Source: a virus
IMG/VR virus record: IMGVR_UViG_3300040816_000786
Span: 1-49,801 of that record
Reading direction: 5' to 3' (one strand)
DNA length: 49,801 nucleotides
The notes under the pieces are model-generated. The model was not told the origin of the DNA. It was given only the letters and a program-made list of their open reading frames with translations, and did not search any database. Each line of letters starts with the position of its first letter. Positions within the stretch are counted from its first letter, which is position 1. The position numbers were made by a program, and so were the translations under genes. Positions 5,122-40,800 of this stretch are shown one piece after another.

Positions 5122-5184
5122 AGTTCAAAAGTTGCACGAGCGAACTTTGTAATTAACACTCACAATTTGGAGGAATTAGATTTT

Positions 5185-5802
5185 ATGGCAAACAACTTAA
5201 AAGAACTTACCTGGGAACATCACAAATCAGCAGAACGTACTGAATTTACTCAAATTTTGCTAGGTGGTGAAATTAGCCCAGAACTTTATCACAAATATCT
5301 TTGCAGCCAATTAATTTGTTATACTGCACTTGAAGAGGCGGTGACATTGCCAACAGAATTTCAATCTGTATTCAGACAAACTGGATTAGAGGAAGATATT
5401 GCGGAATTAGAAAGCATTTATGGTATTGAACCATGGGATGAACCTTTACCAGCGGTAATTGAATATGTTGAGCATATAGGTTATCTTGCGAAAAATAACG
5501 ACAACAATGGTCTTTTGGCTCACCTATATGTTCGCCATTTTGGTGATATGAGCGGTGGACAAATTATCAGAACCAAGGTTCCAGGCGATGGTACATTCTA
5601 TGATTTTGATGACATTGATACATTAAAATCTGGTATTAGAGAATTGTTGAATAATGATATGGCTGTAGAAGCTGGCATTTGTTTCCAATATGCTGAGCAA
5701 ATGTTTGGTGAATTGCTGGATTGCACTCCATATTATTTTAATACTGAATATGCAATGGCGGAAGGCTTACCATATGATGTCGCTGATGGTGAAGAAGAAT
5801 AG
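5185..5802 (+). CDS. ho1: heme oxygenase
   Basis: This 205-residue enzyme should cleave heme to biliverdin IXalpha, CO and iron using reduced ferredoxin and O2. HKSAE near the N-terminus supplies the proximal heme-ligand His13. GDMSGGQ (120-126) is the glycine-rich distal-helix motif. Length is right for cyanobacterial-type HO1 (about 240) with a shortened tail. A TTG at 5167 opens the frame, but it overlaps the GGAGG ribosome site (5169-5173), so the ATG at 5185 is the better start. The bilin reductase gene begins 3 bases after its stop, making a two-gene operon that converts heme to a reduced bilin. Confidence 0.92.
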   Translation: MANNLKELTWEHHKSAERTEFTQILLGGEISPELYHKYLCSQLICYTALEEAVTLPTEFQSVFRQTGLEEDIAELESIYGIEPWDEPLPAVIEYVEHIGYLAKNNDNNGLLAHLYVRHFGDMSGGQIIRTKVPGDGTFYDFDDIDTLKSGIRELLNNDMAVEAGICFQYAEQMFGELLDCTPYYFNTEYAMAEGLPYDVADGEEE

Positions 5803-11493: not shown

Positions 11494-12936
11494 ATGCCTC
11501 GTAATTTTAGAAACTATTTAAATGAAGCTTCTATATTAAAACCTGATTATGTAGAAGGGCATAAATTTGCCTGGAACGGTAAAGGTGTAAAGGAATTTGA
11601 AACCGCCGGTTATAAGCGCAATAATATATTTACTGTAGTTACTGGTTCAGAAGGTGCTGTACTCATTGGAAGCCAAGATGCTGAGAATGAAAAATACCTA
11701 CAAGGACCTGACGGAAAGGTATGGCACTTTAAAGGTGGTCTAAGTTTTAAGGCATCTTCTTTTACCCATGTTAAGGAATCTGGTGGGACACCCAGTGGCG
11801 CCGAATGGGAAAACCTTATTGTATTTGCCTATAATAATCTTAAAGGTACTGCTACAGATGAGGAAACAAAGGAAGTTGCTCTCAAATATTGGGAGCGTTA
11901 TGGTAATATTTCGGATGAAATTGCTAAAAACTTTGATACCAATCTTAAGGCAAAGCAGTTAGTACAAACAGGGCGTGGTTTGGGTAATGTCAAACTTGGA
12001 AAGTTTTGGAAAGCAGCTGGTGCGACAAACAAGACACCAAAAACTGATATCGCATCATCTAATTTTGTGGAAAAGATTTCACTTAAAAAAGGTGGTGGAT
12101 CTCAGCTCATTTCAGCAGAGAAAAAAGAAGCACTTGCAATCGTCAATGCTGCCCTATACGAAATGGGTGGTAACGCACCATTTGCCAAAAAGTTAACTAA
12201 GGCTATTGAAGATAAAATGACCAGACTTGTTACAACTGAGGCGGTCACAACCCTACAGAAACGCTCAATGATGGGTGATAAGGACGCTGGTGTGATTGAT
12301 TATCAGAAAAAGGATAATGATCATAAGGAATTGTCTGCAATGCTCAAGGAGGCCATTAGAGGGGCATCCGAAAGCAATAACTTATTCGCTCGACATATTG
12401 TACTAGAGGCAGCCACTGGTAATAATAAATTTGGTGGTGCCAATTCAAAGGCAGCCGCAAATGTTTTAGGAAAATTTGATATTAGAACATTTGAGGTGGT
12501 TGTACAACCCATTTCATCTATTGATGATCCTATTATTATAGAGTATGCACAAAAGGTACGGCCATATGTTGCATTTAAAAAAGGTTCAGCGGGTTCTGCT
12601 GCTTATTCGGCAATGCGGATGGGTTTATCCGAAGGCTATACATTCCAAAAACTAGTCACCGAAGAACTTTCAAACATTCAAGGTTTCTATCTTACAGAGG
12701 ATATTCTAAACGAAGGTCCTATGGGTATGCTTAGACGTGCTGGCACATTTGCCAAACGTGCAGGTGCCGCAGCTAAAAAAGCATTGGATGCAGCAGTTAA
12801 AAAGATCATTTTAAAATTAAAAAAGGTATTTGCAGCCATTGCCAAAAAAGGTAAAAACATGATGGCAGCCCTTATGAAGTTCTTAGGGGTTGAGGTAAGT
12901 ACTGCATCAGGAATTCCAGCAGAGGTAGGTCTATAA
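11494..12936 (+). CDS. putative internal head protein with nuclease-like core (480 aa)
   Basis: The N-terminus FRNYLNE (residues 5-11) followed by A12 matches the capsid-targeting pattern of T4 internal proteins, with a [LI]-x-E prohead-protease site after E11. The core has E104/E106, KTDI (D185) and KISLKKGGGSQL (about 194-205), an arrangement reminiscent of PD-(D/E)XK nucleases, with Ser in place of the usual acidic residue before K198; this is a pattern match only. Residues 415-465 are Ala/Lys-rich amphipathic helices with few acidic residues, suited to DNA binding or membrane contact. The gene begins a late operon with the ligase-like gene. Alternative reading: an ordinary structural protein. 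Confidence 0.6.
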   Translation: MPRNFRNYLNEASILKPDYVEGHKFAWNGKGVKEFETAGYKRNNIFTVVTGSEGAVLIGSQDAENEKYLQGPDGKVWHFKGGLSFKASSFTHVKESGGTPSGAEWENLIVFAYNNLKGTATDEETKEVALKYWERYGNISDEIAKNFDTNLKAKQLVQTGRGLGNVKLGKFWKAAGATNKTPKTDIASSNFVEKISLKKGGGSQLISAEKKEALAIVNAALYEMGGNAPFAKKLTKAIEDKMTRLVTTEAVTTLQKRSMMGDKDAGVIDYQKKDNDHKELSAMLKEAIRGASESNNLFARHIVLEAATGNNKFGGANSKAAANVLGKFDIRTFEVVVQPISSIDDPIIIEYAQKVRPYVAFKKGSAGSAAYSAMRMGLSEGYTFQKLVTEELSNIQGFYLTEDILNEGPMGMLRRAGTFAKRAGAAAKKALDAAVKKIILKLKKVFAAIAKKGKNMMAALMKFLGVEVSTASGIPAEVGL

Positions 12937-14189
12937 TGAAAAGATTTAAAAACTATATTGCAGAGGAGGTCCTTACAGAGGATAAGAATTTGCATATGAC
13001 GCACCTTGAGGATGCGGTCCTTGATGGGGGTGTGGTTGGTACTCGGAATGTTATTAACTATCTTCGTGCATTGAGAGACATGTTAGGTGGCAACACCAAG
13101 GCACCAGTAAATGTCTCTGTAAAATGGGATGGGGCACCGGCAATTTTTGCTGGGAAAGATCCATCCGATGGCAAATTCTTTATTGCCAAAAAAGGTGTTT
13201 TTAATAAGAATCCCAAAATATATAAAACAGAAGCTGAAATTGACAATGATATATCAGGTGACCTTGCGTCAAAGTTTAAGGTTGCTTTAAAAGAGTTTAG
13301 TAAGCTCGGCATTGAAGGAGTGGTACAGGGTGATTTCCTATATACGAATGATGATTTACAAACGACGGCTATTGATGGAGAATCGTATATTACTTTCCAT
13401 CCTAATACGATTGTTTACGCGGTACCAACAAAAAGCAAACTTGCAAAAACAATTTCAGGATCCTCGATCGGCGTGGTCTTCCATACAACATACCGAGGAG
13501 ATTCATTTGAAACAATGTCAGCAAGTTTTGGAAAGGAGATTGTACCTTCTCTCAAAAAAGTCAAATCGGTCTGGGCGGTAGATGCAGTATTTGAAGATAA
13601 GTCGGGCAATGCCACATTTACAGCTGCAGAGACAAAAGCATTAAATTCTATTCTAACCAAGGTAGGCACACTGTTCAGAACAATTAAAAAGGAAACCCTA
13701 AACGGTCTTTCAAAGGCAAATAATGAGGAACTTAATACACGCGTAAATGTATATGTAAATCAAAAGGTCCGAGCTGGAGAACGTATTGGAAACCCTAAAC
13801 AGTTTGTGGCTGGTCTCACAAAATACATCAATGACTATTACGGCAAAGAGGCAGATAAAAAGAAAACCCAGCGCGGTAAAGACACACAGACCGCAAAGCG
13901 TGACTCGGCTCTAGCCTATTTTGCAAACAATAATAAAAAAGAAATAGAACGCTTATTTGAAATGTATAACCTATTAGTTGATGCTAAACTTATGGTTATT
14001 TCAAAATTAAACCATGTCGATGGTCTACAAACATTTCTTAAAACCAATAAAGGTTTTGAGGTTACTGGACAGGAAGGCTTTGTCGCCATTGATCATATGG
14101 GTAAAAATTCACTTAAACTTGTAGATAGACTACAATTTAGTAAGGCGAACTTTAGTACAGAATATATTAAAGGCTGGGAGAAAAAGTAA
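12936..14189 (+). CDS. putative internal head protein with DNA/RNA ligase-like nucleotidyltransferase core (417 aa)
   Basis: FKNYIAE at residues 4-10 is a capsid-targeting-like start with an I-A-E cleavage site. The core shows SVKWDG (61-66), like the K-x-D-G motif I whose Lys63 would carry AMP. Next come EGVVQGDFLY (127-136), then EGFV (380-383) and LKLV (393-396), which resemble motifs III, IV and V of ATP-dependent ligases and capping enzymes. The order is right but the long gap before motif IV is unusual, so activity is uncertain. If packaged and injected, it could repair incoming DNA or modify host RNA. The ATG overlaps the stop of the gene before it. Confidence 0.6.
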   Translation: MKRFKNYIAEEVLTEDKNLHMTHLEDAVLDGGVVGTRNVINYLRALRDMLGGNTKAPVNVSVKWDGAPAIFAGKDPSDGKFFIAKKGVFNKNPKIYKTEAEIDNDISGDLASKFKVALKEFSKLGIEGVVQGDFLYTNDDLQTTAIDGESYITFHPNTIVYAVPTKSKLAKTISGSSIGVVFHTTYRGDSFETMSASFGKEIVPSLKKVKSVWAVDAVFEDKSGNATFTAAETKALNSILTKVGTLFRTIKKETLNGLSKANNEELNTRVNVYVNQKVRAGERIGNPKQFVAGLTKYINDYYGKEADKKKTQRGKDTQTAKRDSALAYFANNNKKEIERLFEMYNLLVDAKLMVISKLNHVDGLQTFLKTNKGFEVTGQEGFVAIDHMGKNSLKLVDRLQFSKANFSTEYIKGWEKK

Positions 14190-15761: not shown

Positions 15762-16475
15762 ATGAAAAATTTAATTTATCAGTATTACAGTAGTCCAGAT
15801 AAAGATCGAGTGAAAAAAGATAGGCCCGGTGTATATATAAATGCCGGTAATTATCACGAGTACTCTAAACAATCCATATCAGCATATGCCAAAAAGCATG
15901 GTGTTTTATATAAATTTATGGACCACAAATTACCTGACGACATCCCTTTATTCTATGGTATTTTTCTACCATTTCTAGAGGGCTGGTGTTGGGATTATGA
16001 TAATATTTGTTTTATTGATAGTGATATTATGGCTACCGTAAATAGTGGAAATGTATTCGACTATGCTGGCAAACAAGGTCTTACATTACATAAAATGGAT
16101 GCTTCAAAACATCGATTTGATTCCAAGCGAGCATTTAAATTCTTTAATGAAATTAACGGCTTCTTTAATAGTGGTGTAGTGATCTTTCCAAGATCCGAAT
16201 ATGAAAATTTCATACATTTTGCATCCACATTAAAACAAAGAGACTTAAACAGAACCTCTGTCGAGAATAGTCTTGGCGGTTTTGATCAAGGTTTATTAAA
16301 TACCTGGATAGCAAATCATAAACGCTATAACGAATTGCCAAAGCAATATAATTATCATATGGGTAGATATCAAAAGCCCGAAAGATGGTACGATGGCGTG
16401 AGCCTAATACACTACCATCGAGAGGACAAAGCATTAATGGAACCAGAGTTTCAGGATGAGAGAATACTTAAATGA
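15762..16475 (+). CDS. glycosyltransferase, GT8-like GT-A fold (237 aa)
   Basis: FIDSDIMA supplies the DxD metal and nucleotide-sugar motif. FNSGVVIF, GGFDQGLLN and LIHYHRE follow in the order seen in GT8-like enzymes (DxD, NxG, FDQ, HxxG-type). It should transfer a sugar from a UDP-sugar to a glycan or protein. It is the first gene of a tightly packed seven-gene + strand run of transferases with ATGA overlaps. No signal or membrane segment, so cytoplasmic. Confidence 0.7.
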   Translation: MKNLIYQYYSSPDKDRVKKDRPGVYINAGNYHEYSKQSISAYAKKHGVLYKFMDHKLPDDIPLFYGIFLPFLEGWCWDYDNICFIDSDIMATVNSGNVFDYAGKQGLTLHKMDASKHRFDSKRAFKFFNEINGFFNSGVVIFPRSEYENFIHFASTLKQRDLNRTSVENSLGGFDQGLLNTWIANHKRYNELPKQYNYHMGRYQKPERWYDGVSLIHYHREDKALMEPEFQDERILK

Positions 16476-17053
16476 TGGGTGATTTAAAATTTACAACTTG
16501 TGGGGATTTTATGCAAGAGCAAGATACTTATATTGACCAGTATAAAGAATTTTACAATAACGGCGGTTACGAAAATAATGATCCCGTGATGAGAGCAAAA
16601 GATGACATTAAAAAGATGCTAAAAAAGTTCGACTGTAAATCATTATTAGATTATGGATGTGGACATGGACTACAATATTCTCAGCACAAATTAGATCAGT
16701 ATTGGGATATTAAAAAACTTACGAAATATGATCCAGGTGTACAAGAATTTGAAATAAAGCCTACTGGGACATTTGATGCAGTCATTAATACTGATGTTTT
16801 AGAGCATATTCCTGAGGATTATGTATATGATGTGATTGCAGACATTTTTAGTTATGCTGGTAAGTTTGTATACTTTAGTATTGCCACAGATCTGGCAAAG
16901 GCAGTATTACCGAACGGGGAAAACGCTCATTGCACATTAAAACCACATTCTGAATGGGTTACCATTATTGATGAAATGCGTGGGGATATTCCTACATTGG
17001 TAAAATGTACTGGCCGTAATCGCTCAAAGATAGGGAGCACGTTACTGGAATGA
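16472..17053 (+). CDS. SAM-dependent methyltransferase (193 aa)
   Basis: LLDYGCGHG (about residues 59-67) is motif I of class I methyltransferases, and FDAVINTDVLEHIPEDYV carries the post-motif D and the DVLEHI block typical of the Methyltransf_11/23 families. It overlaps the gene before (ATGATG around a TGA) and the one after. Within the glycan island it probably methylates a sugar or lipid-linked intermediate. Confidence 0.75.
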   Translation: MMGDLKFTTCGDFMQEQDTYIDQYKEFYNNGGYENNDPVMRAKDDIKKMLKKFDCKSLLDYGCGHGLQYSQHKLDQYWDIKKLTKYDPGVQEFEIKPTGTFDAVINTDVLEHIPEDYVYDVIADIFSYAGKFVYFSIATDLAKAVLPNGENAHCTLKPHSEWVTIIDEMRGDIPTLVKCTGRNRSKIGSTLLE

Positions 17054-17568
17054 TTAGAAAGGTTATACTCATTGGTAATGGTCCGTCAAGTAAATTTTAT
17101 TCACAATTAAATCATTTAGATGGCGGAATGACAGCTGGGTTTAACCTTACTGAACACAATGTAGATATTATTTTTGTAAGCGATAAAAAAGTTATTAATA
17201 AACTTGAAGGCAATCCAAAGGTACATGTATTAAAAAAGCCTTTCATGACAAAAAAAGGTGGGCTTAATCTTGCATGGAATACAGGCCATAATGCATATAA
17301 CTACCTAAGAAAAATGGGTTATACTCATTTTGAAATGTATGGTTTTGATTTGCTCTTTTCAGACAATTGGAGTTCGTCGACAGATCGAGTATTTAATAAG
17401 GATCTGTGGGTTCAACAGGCGATTGAGGTTGACATTAATAACGAATGGATTCAATACTGGAATGAGATAATTGACACACCTACAATCATTCATGCTCCTG
17501 TCGGGGCAAAACTTTATGTAAACTCTAAACATGCACAAATAGAACACCATGAAAACTTTAATTATTAG
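17050..17568 (+). CDS. putative DUF115/sialyltransferase-like glycosyltransferase (172 aa)
   Basis: The N-terminus RKVILIGNGPSSKFY carries the GNGPS loop shared by GT42 sialyltransferases and DUF115/MptE-like proteins. FNLTEHNVDIIFVSD resembles their second nucleotide-binding strand, and FEMYGFDLLFSD a later core strand. The likely role is transfer of a charged or acidic sugar, but the donor cannot be told. It overlaps the next gene by 20 bases. Confidence 0.5.
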   Translation: MIRKVILIGNGPSSKFYSQLNHLDGGMTAGFNLTEHNVDIIFVSDKKVINKLEGNPKVHVLKKPFMTKKGGLNLAWNTGHNAYNYLRKMGYTHFEMYGFDLLFSDNWSSSTDRVFNKDLWVQQAIEVDINNEWIQYWNEIIDTPTIIHAPVGAKLYVNSKHAQIEHHENFNY

Positions 17569-18097
17569 TATGCCTAAATCAGGCACATATCTATGTAGTA
17601 ATTTACTTTTAGAGTTTGGAATCAGACAAACCTTACTACATTTAAACACAGGTACCTACCAGCAATATACATCTGATATAAACGATACCAGAAAAAATCC
17701 CCAAAAATACACACACCAGTTGAACTTTGAAAAGTCAATAGAGTTATTTGGTGATAATGAGTTTGCGGTCACCCACGTACCATATAATAAGAAAAGAGCT
17801 CAATTGCTGAAGAACACAAAGAAAATACTTTTGGTGAGAGACGAAAAGGAAATTGTAGAATCATATCAAAGATGGAATGAAAAAACTGATAGACCTATGC
17901 CAGCGTTAAATTTAGGTGATATAAAGAGATGGGAGCAAGAAACTAATATTTTTAAGCTTTCATTTAATGATATGATAAATAAAAATGTAGAACAGATTGA
18001 TAGGTTACAGAACTATCTTTTTAATAGTATAAAGTTTGATAGTCTGATGTGTATTAAGAATGCAATTGAATTGCCATCAATGACAAAAATGAGGTAA
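17549..18097 (+). CDS. sulfotransferase family protein (182 aa)
   Basis: SMPKSGTY (residues 7-14) is the 5'-phosphosulfate loop that binds PAPS, with the catalytic Lys. KILLVRDEKEIVESYQRW matches the 3'-phosphate binding strand and helix (RxxxxxxxSxY). It is shorter than typical enzymes (about 250-300) and may be a minimal version. It would move sulfate from PAPS to a sugar hydroxyl. First of three adjacent sulfotransferase-like genes. Confidence 0.7.
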   Translation: MKTLIISMPKSGTYLCSNLLLEFGIRQTLLHLNTGTYQQYTSDINDTRKNPQKYTHQLNFEKSIELFGDNEFAVTHVPYNKKRAQLLKNTKKILLVRDEKEIVESYQRWNEKTDRPMPALNLGDIKRWEQETNIFKLSFNDMINKNVEQIDRLQNYLFNSIKFDSLMCIKNAIELPSMTKMR

Positions 18098-18101
18098 TAT
18101 T

Positions 18102-18773
18102 ATGGTAATATGTGATAAACATAATTTTATATTTCTGAGAATTCCGAAGAATGCAAGCTCTAGTCTTGCAGATTTTTTCGTGAGAAACTTTTGTGATCAG
18201 AATGATATATGGACAGAGGTAAACGATTGTGGTATTAGAGACAATAATGTAAACCCAGAGTTGATTAGAAAATATAGACATCAGTACAGGTTTATCCACC
18301 TAATGCTTCAGGAACTAGTGGATAATAATGTCGTGACCCCGACTACGTTGGCTGATAAGGAAATCATAAGTGTACTTAGAAACCCACATAGGCGCCAATT
18401 ATCACTTTATTTCTTTTTAAAGCGAGGACAAAGAAAATCGCCTGAGGAATTTAGACATATTTTTAGAGATGGTTATCATGAAACGGATACTTCAAATAGG
18501 ATTCTCCAAACAGATTATCCTAAATTAAAAGGTGTTGACAAAGGGACATGGTGGATATATAATAGACTTAATGAACACTTGCAAGAGTTTTGCTCCTCCA
18601 AGGGCATGACAGGAAAGTTAGAATTAAAACAATATAAAAACGGATATACACCGAAACAACAAGAAATCTTTGAACAGTATTATGACCAAAAAACACTTGA
18701 TGCTGTTAAAAAATATTATGAAAAGGATTTTGACAAACTTATGGAATTAGGAACGGGATTGGAACTAGCATGA
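18102..18773 (+). CDS. sulfotransferase, family 2-like (223 aa)
   Basis: FLRIPKNASSSLADFF (residues 11-26) is the PAPS loop in the IPKNASSS form of carbohydrate sulfotransferase family 2. ISVLRNPHRRQLSLYFF is the 3'-phosphate motif (RNPxxRxxS). Length is close to normal for phage and bacterial forms. The next gene overlaps by ATGA. Together with its neighbours it suggests sulfated glycan synthesis during infection. Confidence 0.75.
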   Translation: MVICDKHNFIFLRIPKNASSSLADFFVRNFCDQNDIWTEVNDCGIRDNNVNPELIRKYRHQYRFIHLMLQELVDNNVVTPTTLADKEIISVLRNPHRRQLSLYFFLKRGQRKSPEEFRHIFRDGYHETDTSNRILQTDYPKLKGVDKGTWWIYNRLNEHLQEFCSSKGMTGKLELKQYKNGYTPKQQEIFEQYYDQKTLDAVKKYYEKDFDKLMELGTGLELA

Positions 18774-19450
18774 ACGAAATACAAAAAGCTTATATTTTAA
18801 GAATTGACACCGATCTATCACGAGAGTATGCTCAAATTACCGCTGATTCTTGTGATACAATAGGACTACCTTACGAATATCACGAGGGCTTCTATAACAT
18901 GGATCCAAATGACGCCTGGAATACCATAGGCTTGAGTAGACATATCAAGCGTAATAACTGGGTTCCAGCTGCACAACTTTGTACGGCTGGTCATGCAGCT
19001 ATTTGGAAAAAGATTGCAGACAATAATGAAACTGCAATTATTCTTGAGCATGATGCTGTAATGCTACACGATCCTCGGAATGTTAAAATTGGTGATAATA
19101 GAATTGTATGTCTAGGATACAAGTTAAAGGATCCAACTAGATATGACCATGAAGCCGCAGGTGGTCCTAGAGGACTTAGACAAATATCTGGCCACGAAGG
19201 TGCTCATGCTTATGCCATCTCGGCGGCTACCGCTAGGTCGATGCTCAAGGAAATTGAGGAAAATGGTGTAAGGTCAGCGGTTGACAATCTATACTTTCTC
19301 ATCCAACGTGCAAATTATACAAAGATTCCTTTGGCTATTATGGACCCAACAGCTGCAATTGGTTGGCTGCGAGACTCTACAATTTGGGAGGAACCAGCAG
19401 AAAATAATTATGCCTTTGTAGCATCATTTGAAAGAAATCTGGTAAATTAA
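18770..19450 (+). CDS. glycosyltransferase family 25-like (LPS type, 226 aa)
   Basis: The block AAQLCTAGHAAIWKKI, then ETAIILEHDAVML with the ExD motif, is the signature of GT25 LPS-biosynthesis galactosyltransferases. GHEGAHAYAISAATARSML also fits this family. It would add a hexose to lipopolysaccharide or a related glycan. It lies between two sulfotransferase genes, consistent with building and then sulfating one glycan. Confidence 0.75.
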   Translation: MNEIQKAYILRIDTDLSREYAQITADSCDTIGLPYEYHEGFYNMDPNDAWNTIGLSRHIKRNNWVPAAQLCTAGHAAIWKKIADNNETAIILEHDAVMLHDPRNVKIGDNRIVCLGYKLKDPTRYDHEAAGGPRGLRQISGHEGAHAYAISAATARSMLKEIEENGVRSAVDNLYFLIQRANYTKIPLAIMDPTAAIGWLRDSTIWEEPAENNYAFVASFERNLVN

Positions 19451-19453
19451 ACC

Positions 19454-20113
19454 ATGTCGTTTCTGTTAAAGAATGATGTTATATCATTACACGTACCAAA
19501 GACGGGTGGTAAGGCATTTGAGCAGTGGATTACATATGGTGCCAGGGTGGTTAAGGAACGAATTGTCAATCAACATTATTCATATTCTGAACTAATAAAT
19601 GTTCACCCTGAGTATACTGATAACGACTATATTATGATTATCAGAAATCCATATGCAAGAATTGTAAGTTGGTACCACCACAGTAGAGATGTGTATACAT
19701 ATAGTATTAATAGACCAGCACAAAAGGACAAGAACCATCCACCAGAATCACCTAGGTTTAGCCCATCATTTGAAGATTGGGTACGAAAGGAGGACCTAAG
19801 AGATTTTCCAGCATTTACAAAAAACAGAACGGCTGGATCTTTTGGAACAATGAAATCATATTTACACCCATCTGGTAGGATGCCAACATATCTATTACAC
19901 CAGGAAACATTAGCAGATGATCTAAAACCATTGAGAGAACTATGGGAAACAGACGCACCATTAACAACTGAAAATAAATCGTCTGTTTCCTTTTCAGGTA
20001 ATAATAATTGGAAAAATGAGTTTAAATCGGATTATACAAAGGACTTTATATACGAATACTTCAAGGAAGACTTTGAAACCTTTGGATATGATAGAAAGTT
20101 CCCCACCGATTAA
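19454..20113 (+). CDS. sulfotransferase family protein (219 aa)
   Basis: ISLHVPKTGGKAFEQW (residues 10-25) is the PAPS-binding loop in the VPKTGG form. IMIIRNPYARIVSWYHH is the 3'-phosphate motif (RNPxxRxxSxY). The C-terminal part has NYTKDF-like YTKDFIYEYFKEDFETFGY, the helix with Y-x-x-D-F found at the end of many sulfotransferases. Last gene of the island; followed by a TATAAATA late box that restarts transcription. Confidence 0.78.
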   Translation: MSFLLKNDVISLHVPKTGGKAFEQWITYGARVVKERIVNQHYSYSELINVHPEYTDNDYIMIIRNPYARIVSWYHHSRDVYTYSINRPAQKDKNHPPESPRFSPSFEDWVRKEDLRDFPAFTKNRTAGSFGTMKSYLHPSGRMPTYLLHQETLADDLKPLRELWETDAPLTTENKSSVSFSGNNNWKNEFKSDYTKDFIYEYFKEDFETFGYDRKFPTD

Positions 20114-20119
20114 GTAAGT

Positions 20120-20127
20120 TATAAATA
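20120..20127 (+). promoter_or_regulatory. T4-type late promoter box
   Basis: Exact TATAAATA 35 bases before the ATG of the 769-residue head-associated protein, directly after the glycan island. Confidence 0.6.
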
Positions 20128-20161: not shown

Positions 20162-22471
20162 ATGGCCGATAAAAAGAAGAAAAAGCCCCCAGTCAAAAAC
20201 TTTAAAGAATTTGACCCGGCCCAATTCATTGAAACTGAACCAAAATTAACAGAAGCCGTTAAAAAAGACACGGTCGTTATTAGTTTCGGCAGAATGAATC
20301 CTATTACAGTAGGACATGAAAAGCTTGTTGGTAAGGTTTTAAATGTTGCTCAAAGCCAAAAGGCGGATCCTGCTATTTTTCTTTCTCACACAACTGATCC
20401 TAAAAAGAACCCTTTAACATATGAGGAAAAACTATTTTTTGCTCAAAAGGCCTTTGGCAAAGTAATTAAGAAATCACCTGCAAGGACAATTATTGAGGTG
20501 GCAAAACAACTACAGAATATGTATAAGAATATGACTGTGGTAGTTGGTTCTGACAGAGTAAAGGAATTTGAAACCTTATTAAATAAATACAATGGAAAAG
20601 ATTATAAATTTAATACTATTAATGTAGTTTCAGCTGGTGAAAGAGACCCAGACTCGGAAGGTGTTTCCGGCATGAGTGCATCCAAGATGAGATCGGCTGC
20701 TGCCGATGATGACTTTAAAAGTTTTAAACAAGGTCTTCCTAAAAAATTACAATCAACCGCAAAAAAGATTTTTGATACAACGAGGCAAGGTATGGCATTA
20801 GATGAAGAAACTTTAGAAGAAGCAGTTCTATCGAGAGCCGCACGACGGAAAAGAGCTCGACTCCTTAGAAGATATAAAGGTAAAATTGCTCTTGCACGCA
20901 AAAAGGCAATGCGTAGACGTGCCACATTAGACACTCTAAAGAAAAGAGCTCGGAAAACTGCACGTACTATGATCAAGGATAAATTGGCAAAGTCCAAAAG
21001 ATTTGCTGATCTTGATCCTACTGCAAAAATTGCTATTGAAAAGAGACTTGAGAAAATGCCATCGGCGCGTCTTGAAAGATTGGCTCGACGGATTCTCCCT
21101 TCAATTAAACGTAAGGAAACGGACCGTATGCAACAAAGAAAAAAGAATGAGTCCTTAAATATTGATGAACAATTTGAAATGTTTATGGAAGAAAGAACAC
21201 CGTCAGGTCGTTTTGGAAAGAATACCCATGATATCAAGGTAAAGGTACCAGGTAGAATTAATAAAGCTATTAAAAAGGGAAGCCCGGTTTGGGACCAACG
21301 TGAGAACAAACCTCACCAGGAAACCAAGAAACACCTTTCCGATATAATGAAAAAGCATGGTGTAAAACCATCTAAGGCAAAACATTATCATAATGACATG
21401 ACAGGTCATTATATGATGGCACATCCAAGTAATGATCCAGCAAAAGTTCATGCCGCGGCAACTGAATTTGAAAAAACAGTAGGTAAGGCGGTTCGTACAG
21501 AAGCCAAAGATGGTGATGGTGTCAATATCGTAAGGGACCGTGAATTTAAGGGTAAACCTATGAAGAAAGAGCCTGGTACAATAGGCATTAAATTCTCTGA
21601 TATGAGAAAGTCTAAGTGGGCCAAGGACTCTGATACCAATCCAAAAAGATCCAAAGCTATGGGTGAAGCCACAGATCTTGAGGAAAAGCTAAAAGCCTCC
21701 GATGATATGGGCACTTGGATTAAGGATTTCCAGGATTCTGATGCACCACAGTTTAAAGACAAATCAAAAGAAAAGCGTAGACAAATGGCTATTGCTGCTA
21801 AATTGGATGCCGAGGATGATGTTAAAAAGGAATCGGTTCAAAAGGGAACTCATATTTCAGACGATCCAAAGGCTATGGCTAGAATAGAAAAATTCTTCAA
21901 AGGTTTGAAGCATCAGCCCAAAGGCAAAGATATGAAAGATATGTTCGGGTTCATGATGAAACAAATGGGCTATAACCCTAAAACCGGCCTTAAAGAATAT
22001 AATGAAGATGTAGATCTTGATGAAGCAGCTCATGATCCTAAACATGTAAAAATGGCTATAGGCATTGCATCTGATAAAAGATATAAAGGTGGTGACATGA
22101 CTGGTGCAGTCAAGTCCATCGAAAAGATCAAAAAGGGACTATCTGATCATCCACAAGTTTCTGCTGTACTAAGAAGACAGAACGAAGAAACCAAAACGGA
22201 ATCGTTGGACGAAATGTGGGGAACATATGTTTCAAAACGACCTCACATGCTATTGGATAAGAACAATAAGGTTAAATTTGACAAGCGCTTTAAAATGTTT
22301 AAAAAGCAAAATGAACTTGAAGAAGAATTTACACTTAATGAAGAAATGGATTTGGTAAATGATCTTGAGAATTCAGTAAATGAGTTTGTAGAATCTAATG
22401 AATTCAAGGAAGCAACTGAACCAAAACTTTCGTTTAAGGATATCCAAAAAAGAATGGGAAAGGCAAAGTAA
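20162..22471 (+). CDS. cytidylyltransferase-like, polyprotein-like head protein (769 aa)
   Basis: A lysine-rich start and FKEFDPAQFIE (14-24) with LTE (29-31) resemble a longer targeting peptide with a protease site. Residues 35-210 form a nucleotidyltransferase domain: GRMNPITVGH (43-52, HxGH-type), GSDR (129-132) and SGMSASKMR (169-177, ISSTxxR-type), as in NMN adenylyltransferases and cytidylyltransferases. Residues 222-320 are extremely basic helices. The rest is small Lys-rich modules separated by acidic linkers such as LDEETLEEA, NEDVDLDEAA and ESLDEMW that offer many [LI]-x-E sites. This suggests processing into several internal proteins in the prohead (inference). Substrate unknown. 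Confidence 0.65.
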   Translation: MADKKKKKPPVKNFKEFDPAQFIETEPKLTEAVKKDTVVISFGRMNPITVGHEKLVGKVLNVAQSQKADPAIFLSHTTDPKKNPLTYEEKLFFAQKAFGKVIKKSPARTIIEVAKQLQNMYKNMTVVVGSDRVKEFETLLNKYNGKDYKFNTINVVSAGERDPDSEGVSGMSASKMRSAAADDDFKSFKQGLPKKLQSTAKKIFDTTRQGMALDEETLEEAVLSRAARRKRARLLRRYKGKIALARKKAMRRRATLDTLKKRARKTARTMIKDKLAKSKRFADLDPTAKIAIEKRLEKMPSARLERLARRILPSIKRKETDRMQQRKKNESLNIDEQFEMFMEERTPSGRFGKNTHDIKVKVPGRINKAIKKGSPVWDQRENKPHQETKKHLSDIMKKHGVKPSKAKHYHNDMTGHYMMAHPSNDPAKVHAAATEFEKTVGKAVRTEAKDGDGVNIVRDREFKGKPMKKEPGTIGIKFSDMRKSKWAKDSDTNPKRSKAMGEATDLEEKLKASDDMGTWIKDFQDSDAPQFKDKSKEKRRQMAIAAKLDAEDDVKKESVQKGTHISDDPKAMARIEKFFKGLKHQPKGKDMKDMFGFMMKQMGYNPKTGLKEYNEDVDLDEAAHDPKHVKMAIGIASDKRYKGGDMTGAVKSIEKIKKGLSDHPQVSAVLRRQNEETKTESLDEMWGTYVSKRPHMLLDKNNKVKFDKRFKMFKKQNELEEEFTLNEEMDLVNDLENSVNEFVESNEFKEATEPKLSFKDIQKRMGKAK

Positions 22472-22965
22472 TGAATAGCTTTAAAGATCATCTTGCAGAA
22501 AAGAAAAATGCAGAAGATCCGGATATCGGAGACCGAAAAGGATCACAACCTTCCGAATATCATAAAGGAATTAAGTCTGTTTCCACCAAGGTCGCTCGTG
22601 ATCAACACTTTAAAAAGTATGCCAAAAAAGGTGAAGATGGCGAGGCGGACAGTCAAGCAAATTATAAACCTGCACCAGGTGACGCCACTGCTACAACAAA
22701 ACCTTCAAAGCACACAAAACGCTATAAGGCTATGTTTGGAGAAGATGCAACAGAAGGCTTAAAGAAAAAGGCCGAGAAAAGCGGTATGCCTCTTGGAGTA
22801 CTTAGGCAGGTTTACAACCGTGGTGTTGCTGCATGGAAATCTGGTCATCGCCCTGGCACTACTCCTCAGCAATGGGGCTTTGCAAGAGTTAATAGCTTTG
22901 TGACCAAATCAAAAGGGACTTGGGGCAAGGCAGATAAGGATTTAGCAGCCAAGGTGGGGGGCTAA
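22471..22965 (+). CDS. putative internal head protein with GHRPGT domain (164 aa)
   Basis: FKDHLAE at residues 4-10 is a targeting-like start with an L-A-E cleavage site. The first 85 residues are polar, Lys-rich and low in complexity. The C-terminal 60 form a compact domain with VYNRGVAAWKSGHRPGTTP and WGFARVNSF, a domain I believe recurs in many phage and environmental proteins without known function. The start overlaps the stop of the previous gene. Predicted to be packaged and cleaved, then injected. Confidence 0.6.
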   Translation: MNSFKDHLAEKKNAEDPDIGDRKGSQPSEYHKGIKSVSTKVARDQHFKKYAKKGEDGEADSQANYKPAPGDATATTKPSKHTKRYKAMFGEDATEGLKKKAEKSGMPLGVLRQVYNRGVAAWKSGHRPGTTPQQWGFARVNSFVTKSKGTWGKADKDLAAKVGG

Positions 22966-22967
22966 AA

Positions 22968-23600
22968 ATGCAAAACTTTAAATCGTTTATTTCTGAAGCC
23001 GGTGGTGCTGGTGAGTGGGGAGCAAAGAAACTCACAAAGAAATATAAAAAAGACACCCCAGGCGAATCCTCTGATTTAAATGAAAGCGCATTAAAAGCAC
23101 TTAGGGTTGCGACCAAAGCTCATGCAGGACAAACACGTAAAAGTGGTGGCAAGTATATTGAGCACCCAAAAGAGGTTGCTCGATTTGTAAAGCAATTTAA
23201 AAAGTCAAATAATCTTTCGGCGTTAGTACAGGCAGCCTATCTACACGATACTATTGAAGATACTGATACAACATATGATGATTTGGTTAAACAGTTTGGT
23301 GCTCTTGTAGCTGATATGGTTCAGGAATTAACAACTGATAAAGCTGCCTCTGATGCTATTGGTAAAGGTGAATACATCGCTGGTAAGATGGCTAAAATGT
23401 CAAGTTGGTCATTAGTTATTAAACTTGCGGATAGATTAGCAAATGTACAAGACATTGATACTCGGCCTGCAGATTTCCAAAAGAAATATGCTGCACAGAC
23501 TGCACTTGCCATTAAACGTCTCCGTAGTGATAGGTTCTTGAGCAAAACACATAATAAAATCATCTCGGCAATTGAGAAAAAGATTAAAGAGTATGTTTAA
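22968..23600 (+). CDS. SpoT/MESH1-like (p)ppGpp hydrolase with capsid-targeting-like N-terminus (210 aa)
   Basis: Residues 4-10 (FKSFISE) plus A11 match the targeting pattern with an I-S-E site. From about 40 on the protein is a small alarmone hydrolase: KAHAGQTRKSGGKYIEHP (50-67, with H52 and H66), AAYLHDTIEDT (89-99) holding the full HDxxED motif (93-98), and KLADRLANV (152-160, D155). HDxxED is kept in hydrolase-active Rel/SpoT proteins. There is no synthetase domain. It should remove pyrophosphate from ppGpp in a Mn-dependent way. Packaging in the head would deliver it with the DNA and blunt the stringent response or an alarmone-based defence (inference). Confidence 0.8.
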   Translation: MQNFKSFISEAGGAGEWGAKKLTKKYKKDTPGESSDLNESALKALRVATKAHAGQTRKSGGKYIEHPKEVARFVKQFKKSNNLSALVQAAYLHDTIEDTDTTYDDLVKQFGALVADMVQELTTDKAASDAIGKGEYIAGKMAKMSSWSLVIKLADRLANVQDIDTRPADFQKKYAAQTALAIKRLRSDRFLSKTHNKIISAIEKKIKEYV

Positions 23601-23976
23601 GTTTAAAAAATATGTATCTGAAGGCCTCAAGCTTAAACTCATTAGAGGTAAAGGCGAAGACGTCTTAAAAATAAAAGATAGTAAAGAGAAGTCTTGGGTT
23701 GAAGTGCGTGGAAAACCTAACTTCGAAACTAAGTTTGATCCAAAAGATCCTCTACATAAAGCAATTGCAGCTTTAAGAAAATCTGTTAATGTGTCTGAGC
23801 TTGTGAATGGAGAGCCTGTAGGCATTAATCCAAACCATCCTGACGGTAAAAAAGCTCTGGCAGCAATAAAGAAGTTGATGAATGAAACTAACGGCTTTCA
23901 ACCAGCAATGATGTTACATGAGCCAACCAAAAAGAAAATATTGTCTAAACAAAAAAAGAATAGAGAAGAAAAATGA
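23593..23976 (+). CDS. putative internal head protein (127 aa)
   Basis: FKKYVSE at residues 4-10 and G11 fit the targeting pattern, with V in place of I/L. A TTG 21 bases upstream opens the frame, but ATG 23593 aligns the motif with its paralogues and overlaps the previous stop as is usual here. The body is very basic (pI high) with SWVEVRGKPNFETKFDPKDPL and a Lys-rich tail. No fold recognised; DNA binding is plausible. Confidence 0.55.
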   Translation: MFKFKKYVSEGLKLKLIRGKGEDVLKIKDSKEKSWVEVRGKPNFETKFDPKDPLHKAIAALRKSVNVSELVNGEPVGINPNHPDGKKALAAIKKLMNETNGFQPAMMLHEPTKKKILSKQKKNREEK

Positions 23977-24668
23977 AAAGATTTAAGCATTATATTTCAG
24001 AAGGTAATGCTAAAGGTGGTTACCATTATGAAGATCAGGTTAATAGTAATCTGAAAAAGCATGGAATGCAGAAAAAGGACCAAAAGAGTGCTGGAGCATC
24101 AAAGGATGCACCTGATGGAACAATTCGGTCCAAGGATGGTAAACATCACAATCTTGAAATTAAACAGAATAAAAATGCTATGTATGGACAAATTGGTATG
24201 CACCACGATGGCAAAACATGGAAGGTAAAGGATAAATCCAAAAAGGATTATCCTGAAACTGCAAAACATATTGAAAAACATGTAGTACCTCATATGAATA
24301 AACATATGGGAAAGCCATCCGGTGATTATCACAAGGATAAAGAAGTACACGGTAACCATTATATCCCACATAAGGGCACTCAGCCCATCCGTGATCATTA
24401 TGCAAAAGATAGAAACACACATTATATTCAGATTGGCAAATCCGGTCTCCACCATATGTCAAAGGATCATGGTAAACTTGGTACTCATGAATTAAACGGA
24501 GATACTCGTTTCCGTGTACGTGTTAAATACCATGGAACAAATAAAAAGACCAACAAGGTAAGTTATAGCCATACTGTTACGATGGAATTAAAGAACCATA
24601 AAGCATCACATATAGATCTGGACCATCATTCAGAACATTTAGGTAAAATACACGGCAAACATGAATAG
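23973..24668 (+). CDS. putative packaged PD-(D/E)XK nuclease-like protein (231 aa)
   Basis: FKHYISE (4-10) plus G11 is a targeting-like start. The core shows E20 (GYHYEDQVNSNL), D48 in APDG and E62-x-K64 in LEIKQNKNAMYGQ (61-73). The E...PDG...ExKQ order is that of restriction-endonuclease-like (PD-(D/E)XK) enzymes. The remaining chain is unusually rich in His, Lys and Gly (many HH, KH, HM pairs), which could bind metal or DNA. If packaged, it would reach the host cytoplasm at injection and could cut host DNA or a rival element. The nuclease call rests on motif pattern only. Confidence 0.6.
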   Translation: MKRFKHYISEGNAKGGYHYEDQVNSNLKKHGMQKKDQKSAGASKDAPDGTIRSKDGKHHNLEIKQNKNAMYGQIGMHHDGKTWKVKDKSKKDYPETAKHIEKHVVPHMNKHMGKPSGDYHKDKEVHGNHYIPHKGTQPIRDHYAKDRNTHYIQIGKSGLHHMSKDHGKLGTHELNGDTRFRVRVKYHGTNKKTNKVSYSHTVTMELKNHKASHIDLDHHSEHLGKIHGKHE

Positions 24669-24945
24669 TTTTAAAACATATATTCTTGAAGCAAAGACAC
24701 CCAAATGGAAAAAGGCAGGGCCGGATGGTGAGCAGGAAATTACCTTTCCTACAGGTAGAAGGTTTAAAATAGAAAAACAACTTGATCAAAATGAGCGACA
24801 TCAACGTGGCGAATATAAGGTCATGGAATGGGATTCCAAAACTCGGGATTGGGAATGGCATGAAACATATAGTCCAAAATGGTATGCTAAAGAGAAGGTA
24901 ATGGAACTAGGCAAGTATGACCAAAAGGGAAAAAAGGTAGGATGA
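24661..24945 (+). CDS. putative internal head protein (94 aa)
   Basis: FKTYILE (4-10) plus A11 fits the targeting pattern (I-L-E site). The rest is Lys/Glu/Trp-rich with repeated WDSKTRDWEWHETYSPKW-like aromatic pairs, probably a small beta domain. It overlaps its neighbours on both sides, part of one translationally coupled late operon. Function unknown. Confidence 0.55.
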   Translation: MNSFKTYILEAKTPKWKKAGPDGEQEITFPTGRRFKIEKQLDQNERHQRGEYKVMEWDSKTRDWEWHETYSPKWYAKEKVMELGKYDQKGKKVG

Positions 24946-25316
24946 AAAAGTTTAAACAACATTTACATGAATCTAACTTTGGTCTATATGAAGGAACCAC
25001 AGTACCACTTGATCAGCCGATGATTGAAATTGATGAGGAACAGGAACCAGAACTTAATTCACCAAAACGTGGCGGCAAGAAAAAGTACATTGTATATGTC
25101 CGGGATCCTAATACAAAGAATATAAAAAAGATCCAATTCGGAGACGACACGGGATTGTCTGCAAAGATTAATGACCCAGGTGCTCGGAAGAATTTTGCAG
25201 CCAGACATAATTGTGCTGATAAAACAGATAAAACCAAGGCTGGCTATTGGGCATGTAGATTACCAAAATATGCCAAACAATTAGGTCTTAAAGGCGGAGG
25301 TGATTTCTTTTGGTAG
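24942..25316 (+). CDS. putative internal head protein with Cys-containing DUF5872-like domain (124 aa)
   Basis: FKQHLHE (4-10) plus S11 fits the targeting pattern (L-H-E site). The C-terminal half carries YIVYVRDPNTKNIKKIQFGD and ARHNCADKTDKTKAGYWACR, a domain I recognise from phages and giant viruses (DUF5872-like). The two Cys and nearby His may form a small metal or disulfide site. Function unknown. It sits 6 bases over the next frame and shares the coupled operon. Confidence 0.6.
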   Translation: MKKFKQHLHESNFGLYEGTTVPLDQPMIEIDEEQEPELNSPKRGGKKKYIVYVRDPNTKNIKKIQFGDDTGLSAKINDPGARKNFAARHNCADKTDKTKAGYWACRLPKYAKQLGLKGGGDFFW

Positions 25317-25620: not shown

Positions 25621-27399
25621 ATGGCTTTTACAGACAGAATTAAACAGTTAATGTCGTCTCATCTCGAGGCGGAACTAATGGAAGGTCTGAAACACGACCG
25701 TTATATGCGTGCTCACGGTAAAAAAGCTAAAGGCACCGCAACATGGATGTTTACCACCAAAAAAGATGGTGAAGTAAACTACGATAACGATAAGGAAGTT
25801 TTCCAATCCGGTCCATCTATGAAACTTGCAGATGCTGCCAAAAAAGCAATGGATGCTCTTAAATCAAAAACAATTTATGTAATGGAAGCTAAATTAGATC
25901 CAGTTGGCAAAGAAGATGATGATGTGGACAATGACGGTGATGTAGATAAATCCGATAAGTATCTTAAAAAGCGCCGGGCCGCAATCAAAAAGGCTATTAA
26001 TACAAAACCAGCAATGAAAGAGGCAGCTAAAAAGCAAAAAGCAAAACTACTGCCCGTCAAAGGTTCTGTAGATGATGCAAATGATGTGGCACAAAAGGCA
26101 ACTGGCGAATCTGTTAATGAAGCGGCAACACCTCAAATGATGAAAGCCGCAAAAGAACTTGAAATGTACGCAAAGAAACACGGTGGGATTGATAAAACAG
26201 ACTTTATGAAAGCCTCAAAGATGTTGGCATCCGGTAAAGCCGGAACAAACCTTGTTAAATTTGTAGACGGACTTGACACAGATCCTCGTGAAAAGGTTAT
26301 TACAGTTATGGGAACCCACATGGGTAATAAAACTGTTGGAAAAATGTTTGGTGTTAACATCCGTGAAGAAGTAGAATTAGACGAAGATCGTAGAACGGAA
26401 CTTAGTCATCAATCAATGATGTTTACTCATGCAATGAAACAAGCTGAATTTAAAAAGAAAGATCCGAGACTCGCAAAACAGCATGATATGGCTGGCAAGT
26501 TGCATGCTAAAGCGGCAGATATGCACGCTGATAACCATCCAGATGCAAAAAAGCATTCAGATAAAGCAAATAAAGCATCAAAGCTATTAGGCGAAGAAGT
26601 AGAACTTGATGAAACTTTATCACCATCTGAAAAGAAACTTGTCAATCAAATGTATGATAAGAAAGGTAACCTGACACCACTTGGTAAAAAGGTTATGAAC
26701 CACGGTAAAAAGCCTGGTGATAACATCCGTGAGGAAACTGAACAGCTTGATGAATCAACTCAAATGATGGAAAATCTAGCTGATGCGATTGATAATACAG
26801 ATTTGGCTAAACTCACAGTAGAAGAGTTATCTGAAATCGAAGAAGGTATTATTAAGGCGCTAGGTGTTGCCGCCAAAAAGACTGTAGGTGGTGTCGCTAA
26901 GGGTGTAGGTGCTGTCGCTAAGGGTGTTGGTAAGGCAGCTAAATCCGCAGTCATTAATAAACAAGGTAATATCCGTGGTACACAAGCGGCTAAAACTGAC
27001 GCACAGACTAACAAGGCTAATAAAATTGCTGATAAATTGCAACGAAATAAAGATGCGGCCGATAGATTAAAAGCGGCTCAGGACAGAATTAAATCTCTTT
27101 CCTCTAAGCCTAAGAAACCATTAGCGGCAAGTTATAATGAGGACCTAAACGAAATCGGAAGTAACTTTGAAACAAAACCGAATGAAAAGAAACTTGCTGA
27201 CCTAGGCCGTAAAATGATGGATATGGGTCAAAAGGAAAAGAATGATACTCTTTCAAATGCATATGCCAGACTTGGTGACGCGTTGACAAGATATGGTACC
27301 ACATTTGGTGCCAGAAATATAAAAGATTTGGAAAAGAAAACTGGCATGAAACAAGCCATTATTATGGATCTTATGAAAAGAGCTGCGAAGCATAAGTAA
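25621..27399 (+). CDS. polyprotein-like head protein with repeated acidic linkers (592 aa)
   Basis: The N-terminus runs FTDRIKQLMSSHLEAELMEG, offering an L-M-E site at 19-21. The chain then alternates Lys/Ala/His-rich modules with near-identical acidic linkers: NIREEVELDED, LLGEEVELDET and NIREETEQLDES. There is also an EF-hand-like DNDGDVDKSD at about 102-111 and a glycine-zipper stretch near 420-445 (VGGVAKGVGAVAKGVGKAA). The linkers contain [LI]-x-E sites for the prohead protease, so the product may be cut into several internal peptides. It has no enzyme motif I recognise. Own late promoter. A scaffold or DNA-condensing role is possible. Confidence 0.6.
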   Translation: MAFTDRIKQLMSSHLEAELMEGLKHDRYMRAHGKKAKGTATWMFTTKKDGEVNYDNDKEVFQSGPSMKLADAAKKAMDALKSKTIYVMEAKLDPVGKEDDDVDNDGDVDKSDKYLKKRRAAIKKAINTKPAMKEAAKKQKAKLLPVKGSVDDANDVAQKATGESVNEAATPQMMKAAKELEMYAKKHGGIDKTDFMKASKMLASGKAGTNLVKFVDGLDTDPREKVITVMGTHMGNKTVGKMFGVNIREEVELDEDRRTELSHQSMMFTHAMKQAEFKKKDPRLAKQHDMAGKLHAKAADMHADNHPDAKKHSDKANKASKLLGEEVELDETLSPSEKKLVNQMYDKKGNLTPLGKKVMNHGKKPGDNIREETEQLDESTQMMENLADAIDNTDLAKLTVEELSEIEEGIIKALGVAAKKTVGGVAKGVGAVAKGVGKAAKSAVINKQGNIRGTQAAKTDAQTNKANKIADKLQRNKDAADRLKAAQDRIKSLSSKPKKPLAASYNEDLNEIGSNFETKPNEKKLADLGRKMMDMGQKEKNDTLSNAYARLGDALTRYGTTFGARNIKDLEKKTGMKQAIIMDLMKRAAKHK

Positions 27400-39606: not shown

Positions 39607-40800
39607 ATGATTGAAACTTCATATTTTGAAAAGATAGTTGAAACTTTAAAACTTGATGGCAATTATCGGGTTTTTAATGATATCCTTAGAGAGCGGGGAG
39701 ACTTTCCCCGCTCTATTTGGTATGGCCCATATGCACCAAAGCAAATTGTAAATTGGTGTTCTAATGATTATCTTGGTATGGGGCAAAATAAAATCGTTAT
39801 AGATGCAATGCACACCGCATTGGATCAGACAGGTTCCGGATCTGGTGGTACCCGTAATATTGGAGGAACCTCGCATTATCATGTTACACTTGAACGAGAA
39901 TTAGCATCCCTACATAAAAAGGAATCTGCCCTTTTATTTACTAGTGCATATGTCGCCAACGAGTGGTCGTTGATTGCACTTACAAGAATAATTCCTGATC
40001 TTATTTTTCTGTCTGACAATAAAAATCATGCCTCTCTTATTATGGGCATAAAACACAGTCGAGCACCCAAAATTGTTTGGGAACATAATAATATGCAAGA
40101 GCTTGAGTTAGCACTTCAAACTGCTCAGTTGTCAAACAAGACACCAATAATTGTTTTTGAATCTGTATATTCAATGGATGGTGATGTGGCACCGATTAAA
40201 GAGATATGTGATCTTGCTGATAAGTATAATGCAATGACGTATATTGATGAGGTTCATGCGGTCGGGCTCTATGGTCATTTGGGGGCTGGATATTTAGAAA
40301 AGCTAGGATTAACAGATAGGGTTGATATTATAAATGGGACGATGGGAAAAGCCTTTGGAGTTCAGGGAGGTTATATTTCTTCTAGCTCTATTGTTATTGA
40401 TGCAATTCGTTCTGTGGCTTCTGGATTTATCTTCACCACCTCACTCAGCCCAGTCATTTGCGCCGGCGCTCTCGCGTCCATCAGATATCTTAAGGATCAC
40501 AACGAATTAAGAGAACAGCACCAGGAACGTGCGGCAAAACTGACATCAATGTTAAAAGATAATAATATTGAGATACACGAATCAGCCTGTACTCATATTG
40601 TTCCTGTAATGATTAGAGATGCCAAAAAGTGTAAAAAGTTAAGTGATATCTTATTGCAACAATTTGGCATATATATTCAACCAATCAACTATCCTACGGT
40701 AGATGAAGGGCAGGAAAGGTTGCGCATTGCGCCGACACCATTACATGATGACACTATGATGCTAGACCTGGTAAATTCACTAAAGAAAGTTTTAGAGTGA
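39607..40800 (+). CDS. hemA: 5-aminolevulinate synthase (C4/Shemin pathway)
   Basis: This 397-residue PLP enzyme should condense glycine and succinyl-CoA to 5-aminolevulinate, the first step of tetrapyrrole synthesis. Signatures: [10 protein letters not shown] (50-59), [17 protein letters not shown] (76-92), [11 protein letters not shown] (186-196), YIDEVHAVG (212-220) and [14 protein letters not shown] (243-256) with PLP Lys248. The GTxGKAFGxxGGY form separates ALA synthase from related KBL and BioF enzymes. Full length for alphaproteobacterial HemA (about 400). A strong hairpin lies inside the early coding region. In context it supplies precursor for heme, which the phage heme oxygenase and PcyX can turn into bilin. 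Confidence 0.9.
39691..39713 (+). promoter_or_regulatory. strong hairpin inside the hemA coding region
   Basis: GAGCGGGGA (39691-39699) pairs perfectly with TCCCCGCTC (39705-39713) around five bases, then TATTT. It resembles a terminator within codons 29-36 and could attenuate hemA transcription or slow translation. Confidence 0.55.

Follow-up and report, generated by a model that had tools for sequence, protein, structure and literature searches.

The locus analysed here raises the question of whether an enzyme of the (p)ppGpp-destroying type is carried in a phage head and delivered to the next host together with the DNA. In the window (the whole 49,801-nt stretch of viral DNA analysed, a fragment), ORF 22968-23600 joins a hydrolase domain to a start of the kind found on T4 internal proteins. 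We consider it probable that its product is an internal head protein of T4 type carrying a small alarmone hydrolase (SAH) as cargo, and widespread uncultured marine T4-like bacterial viruses appear to pack this type of enzyme in the head under the T4 injection tag. The features of the ORF, whose start and stop agree with those originally predicted, are as follows (ORFs are named below by their first or by both positions).

22968..23600, plus strand: small alarmone hydrolase with a capsid-targeting start, 210 aa (profile matches, predicted fold)
22968..22997, plus strand: capsid-targeting sequence MQNFKSFISE, residues 1-10, with a possible gp21 cut after E10 (register of T4 IPII/IPIII)
22998..23075, plus strand: low-confidence linker, taken as disordered, residues 11-36 (pLDDT below 50 at 12-31)
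23076..23084, plus strand: LNE, residues 37-39, candidate gp21 cleavage site abutting the HD domain (LNE, FNE or MNE in 40/40 N-termini)
23085..23597, plus strand: HD hydrolase domain, residues 40-210 (pLDDT about 94-98; invariant residues)
23244..23261, plus strand: catalytic motif HDxxED (HDTIED), H93-D98 (sequence, alignment)
23421..23438, plus strand: KLADRL block, residues 152-157, with D155 as a putative metal ligand (sequence, alignment)

Enzyme class, fold and substrate

By every sequence and fold test run, ORF 22968-23600 encodes a small alarmone hydrolase. The RelA/SpoT model TIGR00691 matches at 2.2e-25, and the match is limited to model positions 1-137 of 687, i.e., to the hydrolase part; HD_4 (PF13328) matches at 2.8e-16, and a PDB search retrieved MESH1 (3nr1, 1.6e-16). 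Only HD families were found above the cut-off in the 210-aa product, with no synthetase, TGS or ACT domain. The view that this is a synthetase-free, SpoT/MESH1-type hydrolase with HDxxED at residues 93-98 and a KLADRL block was therefore borne out by the motifs, the restricted profile match and the predicted fold. In an alignment of 61 sequences, comprising the protein's own family, other phage hydrolases and bacterial Rel proteins, H52, H66, H93, D94, E97, D98, D155 and N159 are invariant, R57 and K152 nearly so, and the window hydrolase retains every invariant residue.

The AlphaFold (AF2) model reached a mean pLDDT of 88.3 after bacterial Rel sequences had been added to the close family, which alone gave an unusable model (46.6). 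The values are near 97 at residues 37-210 and below 50 at residues 12-31, preceded by a short helix at residues 4-11. The predicted domain shows the all-helical SAH fold and superimposes on human MESH1 (5vxa) with Z 23.1 and 2.0 A over 168 residues; in the structure ranking, stand-alone hydrolases stood above most HD domains of long Rel proteins.

Since the class ranges from (p)ppGpp-only to (p)ppApp-only enzymes, and some members act on NADPH (PMC7644958, PMC9765508), the substrate of the window hydrolase cannot be read from its sequence. It might be packaged and yet act on NADPH, CoA or PAPS-type nucleotides, as a 3'(2')-phosphatase like the reported MESH1 activities. The closest folds include complexes of MESH1 with NADPH and with PAPS (5vxa, 9chy), MESH1 is reported to be active on NADPH and CoA (PMC9765508, PMC13221220), and a Sulfotransfer_2 gene lies nearby (18102-18773). 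However, both the fold and the residues fit alarmone hydrolases just as well, and XccSAH, a bacterial SAH, turns over alarmones more efficiently than NADPH (PMC9765508). We estimate such a specificity to be unlikely.

The domain is also under strong purifying selection (median pN/pS 0.107 among IMG/VR relatives), and the catalytic residues are all invariant among 34 family members. Poor conservation and diversity between related phages are features of the T4 internal proteins (PMC9026906) and would suit a packaged inert filler or scaffold with a relic of enzyme activity, but the selection on this domain and its invariant active site leave that reading with hardly any probability.

An exchangeable capsid-targeting start

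In T4, a ten-residue propeptide directs the internal proteins to the head, and mutagenesis of IPIII indicated that residues 4 and 7 matter for targeting, whereas residues 8 and 10 matter for gp21 processing (PMC9026906). MQNFKSFISE has aromatic residues at positions 4 and 7, Ile at 8 and Glu at 10 (the element FKSFISE spans residues 4-10), in a register identical to that of MKTYQEFIAE, with which IPII and IPIII of T4 (NC_000866) begin. On this sequence comparison, the start of the hydrolase is a T4-type capsid-targeting sequence. T4 IPI (NC_000866) starts with MKTFKEFTS and its residues 1-19 end in TITE, which fits the 76-residue mature form (PMC3012670). The hydrolase itself has two candidate gp21 sites of the [LI]xE type: ISE in the tag and LNE before the domain. 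In the linker between them, GAGEWGAKKLTKKYKKDTPGES resembles a polyprotein segment, GAGEQGTNELTKKYKKDTPMES being found near the end of the polyprotein of two relatives (L011/L012).

A scan of IMG/VR gave 76 related loci, from 72 of which the HD ORF was extracted; aligned family members are 77-94% identical to the window protein. The N-terminus has been exchanged repeatedly between these relatives, whereas the HD domain is strongly conserved. Counting complete starts only, 37 of 40 distinct N-termini carry a tag of the form M-x(1-3)-[FYW]-x-x-[FYWH], and in one of the three non-matching ones (L008) the tag stands behind a GTG codon. The tag in L016-L019 is MKRFKEFTSHDLNE, nearly the IPI start, and some copies lose tag position 8 or 10 (FKEFTSHD, FKSHINQ). 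All 40 distinct N-termini end in [LFM]NE (LNE, FNE or MNE) directly before the HD domain, and N38 and E39 are invariant in the family; L144 has LDE there. The stretch between tag and domain varies from almost nothing to more than 100 residues: L021 and L037 have an extra 84-118 residues in this place, and in L144 the hydrolase, preceded by VDLDE, lies inside a 1197-residue ORF together with counterparts of the window ORFs 20162, 22471 and 24942.

The simplest competing view is that of an ordinary cytosolic phage SAH, which keeps alarmones low during infection, is not packaged and has an incidental N-terminal element. Phage SAHs proposed to counter alarmone signalling are known (PMC7824862, PMC12846349), and the homologues from phages of Vibrio, Burkholderia and Erwinia are untagged, with the first helix of the domain as their start. 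Against this stands the retention of the tag in nearly all distinct N-termini despite the variable stretch behind it, together with the late promoter and operon shared with other tagged proteins and the virion proteins made from the counterpart cluster in cyanophages (see below). We judge the cytosolic view quite improbable.

A more distant relative of the HD domain (53% identity) sits at positions 1991-2194 within an ORF that exceeds 2,800 residues (L147:1-8433; IMGVR_UViG_3300031857_000478). The phage contig is of a different kind, and giant proteins of this sort may be virion components in their own right.

A predicted late operon, tagged neighbours and virion proteins

The hydrolase gene lies inside an operon, a run of overlapping or touching ORFs starting from ORF 20162. 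This operon, the further tagged ORFs of the window and the next late promoter word with the ORF behind it are as follows:

11494..12936, plus strand: tagged ORF, MPRNFRNYLNEA, with no family match (tag pattern)
12936..14189, plus strand: DUF6267 ORF with tag MKRFKNYIAEE and a ligase-like KWDGAP motif (PF19782, 4.9e-108; phrog_455)
20120..20127, plus strand: T4-type late promoter word TATAAATA, 35 nt upstream of ORF 20162 (promoter-position enrichment)
20162..22471, plus strand: cytidylyltransferase/NMNAT-like putative internal protein, first gene of the operon (phrog_3041, 3.8e-70; counterparts in the cyanophage clusters detected in virions)
22471..22965, plus strand: DUF5824 protein with tag MNSFKDHLAEK (PF19141, 2e-20)
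23593..23976, plus strand: tagged ORF, MFKFKKYVSEG, overlapping the hydrolase stop (tag pattern)
23973..24668, plus strand: tagged ORF, MKRFKHYISEG (phrog_26930, tag pattern)
24661..24945, plus strand: tagged ORF, MNSFKTYILEA (tag pattern), a domain of another ORF in contig G002
24942..25316, plus strand: tagged ORF, MKKFKQHLHES (phrog_7595), fused with the HD domain in one L144 ORF
25574..25581, plus strand: next late promoter word TATAAATA, 40 nt before ORF 25621 (promoter-position enrichment)
25621..27399, plus strand: 592-aa internal polyprotein-like ORF (49% identity over 87 aa to the G002 ORF between portal and gp21)

The original prediction that the hydrolase begins with the same element as other putative internal proteins was confirmed, as seven further window ORFs (11494, 12936, 22471, 23593, 23973, 24661 and 24942) start alike. 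The strict pattern M..[FY]..[FYH][ILV].E, whose positions were taken from the T4 mutagenesis (PMC9026906) but which was written after inspection of the window sequences, is present in 7 of the 68 window ORFs, against 0.009 expected from shuffles (p <= 5e-5), and six of these seven fall in one consecutive run (22471-25316).

Promoter-position occurrences of the word TATAAATA number 5 in the window, 14 in G001 (151 kb) and 18 in G002 (183 kb), the two long contigs that carry the gene, against 0.5, 1.3 and 2.9, respectively, for its anagrams; in G001 the word stands before the portal gene, in G002 before gp23. Its raw window count is raised only slightly (9 against 5.4), and the signal is thus one of position. 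The shorter word ATAAATA showed no enrichment, and a sigma-70 promoter scan gave fewer hits than in shuffles. Of 43 distinct upstream stretches, 3 have TATAAATA no more than 120 nt from the start of the hydrolase gene, a figure that says little because the hydrolase gene of the window lies inside the operon. The presence of this word before the operon and before head genes suggests that the hydrolase is probably made late, as heads are built.

Both G001 and G002 encode a T4-type gp21 prohead protease and gp23 capsid protein. The capsid proteins share a T4-like cleavage region, reading SLTE-AAPTN and LLQE-APTN at the place of FLTE-AEIGG in T4. Between portal and protease, G002 has a tagged ORF of 559 residues that is related to window ORF 25621. 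Neither gp21 nor gp23 was found in the window, a 49.8-kb fragment, and the prohead protease was not found in six further contigs, all of them fragments.

Sites of the [LIMF]xE type are enriched in ORF 20162 (8 against 3.3, p = 0.016). In ORF 25621 the enrichment is not significant (p = 0.11), and the polyprotein idea therefore rests mainly on the fusions in L021, L037 and L144. A single ORF of 353 residues, L096:1313-2374 (G002:121313-122374), unites pieces of window ORFs 24661, 28118 and 20162, which shows that such pieces are shuffled between genes.

Several other genes of the window are worth mentioning. The KWDGAP motif of ORF 12936-14189 resembles an RNA/DNA ligase active site, and a packaged ligase-like protein is possible. 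The Sulfotransfer_2 gene (PF03567, 7.7e-8) belongs to a putative transferase run (15762-20113) just before the predicted late operon, two other scanned genes of which had no Pfam match. ORF 39607-40800 is a 5-aminolevulinate synthase (TIGR01821, 5.9e-171, above the cut-off), the first haem-synthesis enzyme as in alphaproteobacteria, which gives a hint at the host group; a haem oxygenase gene (5167-5802; PF01126, 5.4e-25) is present in the same window.

Virion data come from two cyanophages, S-CREM2 and S-SCSM1, in both of which the cluster is placed as in the window, upstream of primase-nrdA-nrdB. In S-CREM2, mass spectrometry detected 52 proteins in virions (PMC10665884). Outside a stretch of about 7 kb (100001-106999) left out of the tag scan, four of the five annotated tagged genes are among those detected, compared with 52 of 219 genes overall (p = 0.012): the SAM hydrolase gp6 (MKDFDSFLEE), the kinase gp14 (VKRFDAFLTE), gp136 (MQTFSMFFSE) and the cytidylyltransferase gp154 (MKNFSSFLTE), the last belonging to the cluster equivalent to that of the window. 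Related elements occur in the detected gp13 (MKDLHSFLTE) and, near the start, in the Cas9-like gp12 (FASFMAE). In S-CREM2 (L159 and L162; OR473000), T4-like tags thus stand at or near the starts of the SAM hydrolase, the kinase, the Cas9-like nuclease and the cytidylyltransferase detected in virions, and they would explain how these enzymes enter the head. In S-SCSM1 (PMC9602691), the NMNAT detected in virions starts with MKSFLQFLKEA; it is the one of four tagged gene starts labelled there as a virion protein, the other three not being so labelled. Such enzymes are hence already present in published cyanophage virion proteomes, whose authors could not tell packaged from co-purified proteins and cautioned that enzymes of high abundance may accompany virions through purification (PMC10665884). 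No alarmone hydrolase is among the virion proteins detected in S-CREM2 or S-SCSM1.

The original prediction of delivery with the DNA thus gained support from several independent lines of sequence evidence, namely the swapping of the tag, the late promoter, gp21 and gp23 in relatives, the tagged cyanophage virion proteins and the untagged homologues elsewhere, while the presence of the hydrolase in the virion is what we infer from them.

Proposed action and known systems

We propose that the hydrolase would be transcribed late from TATAAATA at 20120, together with the other tagged proteins, and that the first ten residues would bind the precursor to the prohead core. The prohead protease gp21 could then cleave behind E10, E39 or both, so that the HD enzyme (residues 40-210) would lie free among the packaged DNA. 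Having entered the next host with this DNA, the enzyme might remove the 3'-pyrophosphate from (p)ppGpp, (p)ppApp or pyrophosphorylated tRNA before phage gene expression, and thereby act on the stringent response or on abortive defence.

Many ocean bacteria live near starvation, with raised alarmones and slow growth. If the proposal is true, a virion-delivered alarmone hydrolase would be a direct reset of starved hosts, acting from the first moment of infection, and it could counter defences that use alarmone-type chemistry. A packaged, alarmone-directed enzyme might also be aimed not at starvation but at toxic synthetases (toxSAS/CapRel, (p)ppApp toxins), a sub-case of the preferred reading that does not exclude the rest of it. 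The SAH PaSpo of phage SSU5 reverses tRNA modification by FaRel2 (PMC11559606) and was co-expressed to produce CapRel SJ46 (PMC9712102), and there are (p)ppApp toxins linked to MuF domains of phage heads (PMC12226406). However, the trigger of CapRel SJ46 is newly made capsid protein, which appears later than injection (PMC9712102), so that a freshly made enzyme would serve equally. No synthetase family, as in a toxSAS pair of the ATfaRel type, was found in the adjacent ORFs scanned. We put this aim forward only tentatively.

In its broadest form, the proposal is that marine T4-like phages inject a set of gp21-processed enzymes derived from tagged proteins and polyproteins, in which the alarmone hydrolase clears (p)ppGpp-type signals or tRNA pyrophosphorylation at infection, as a pre-emptive attack on starvation or abortive-defence signalling; we give this wider scenario slightly less than an even chance. 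The tag, in turn, offers a simple criterion by which injected enzymes of T4-like phages could be recognised from sequence. In the literature searched, we found no report of virion delivery of an alarmone hydrolase, and nothing that treats an internal head protein and alarmones together.

What is described here is probably a T4-type internal protein with an already known enzyme as its cargo. With IPI, IPII and IPIII of T4 it shares an N-terminal tag with aromatic residues 4 and 7, a hydrophobic residue 8 and Glu 10, an [LI]xE site before the mature part, and the arrangement of unrelated cargo behind a common tag. Unlike them, it carries a conserved signal-nucleotide hydrolase, whereas IPI is a small restriction inhibitor; it has two candidate cleavage sites, and its domain is also found inside a long polyprotein (L144).

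The stand-alone HD domain, the active-site residues and the fold are those of MESH1, the Pseudomonas SAH and PaSpo of SSU5, to which the window ORF adds 39 residues of capsid tag and flexible linker (9-20 residues in most copies); in contrast to these enzymes, its gene is placed in a predicted late head-protein operon, and no toxic synthetase is encoded in the adjacent ORFs scanned. Equally phage-borne, and related in sequence (29-46% identity), are the HD-alarmone phosphodiesterases of jumbo phages, proposed to counter alarmone-based systems (PMC7824862), and the SAHs of Vibrio, Burkholderia and Erwinia phages, but the copies of the latter three groups are untagged, while the window hydrolase is tagged. 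The virion enzymes of S-CREM2 and S-SCSM1 (SAM hydrolase, kinase, cytidylyltransferase/NMNAT) resemble it in the start motif and in the position of the cluster before primase-nrdA-nrdB; no alarmone hydrolase is reported there, and the accessible passages do not describe the capsid tag.
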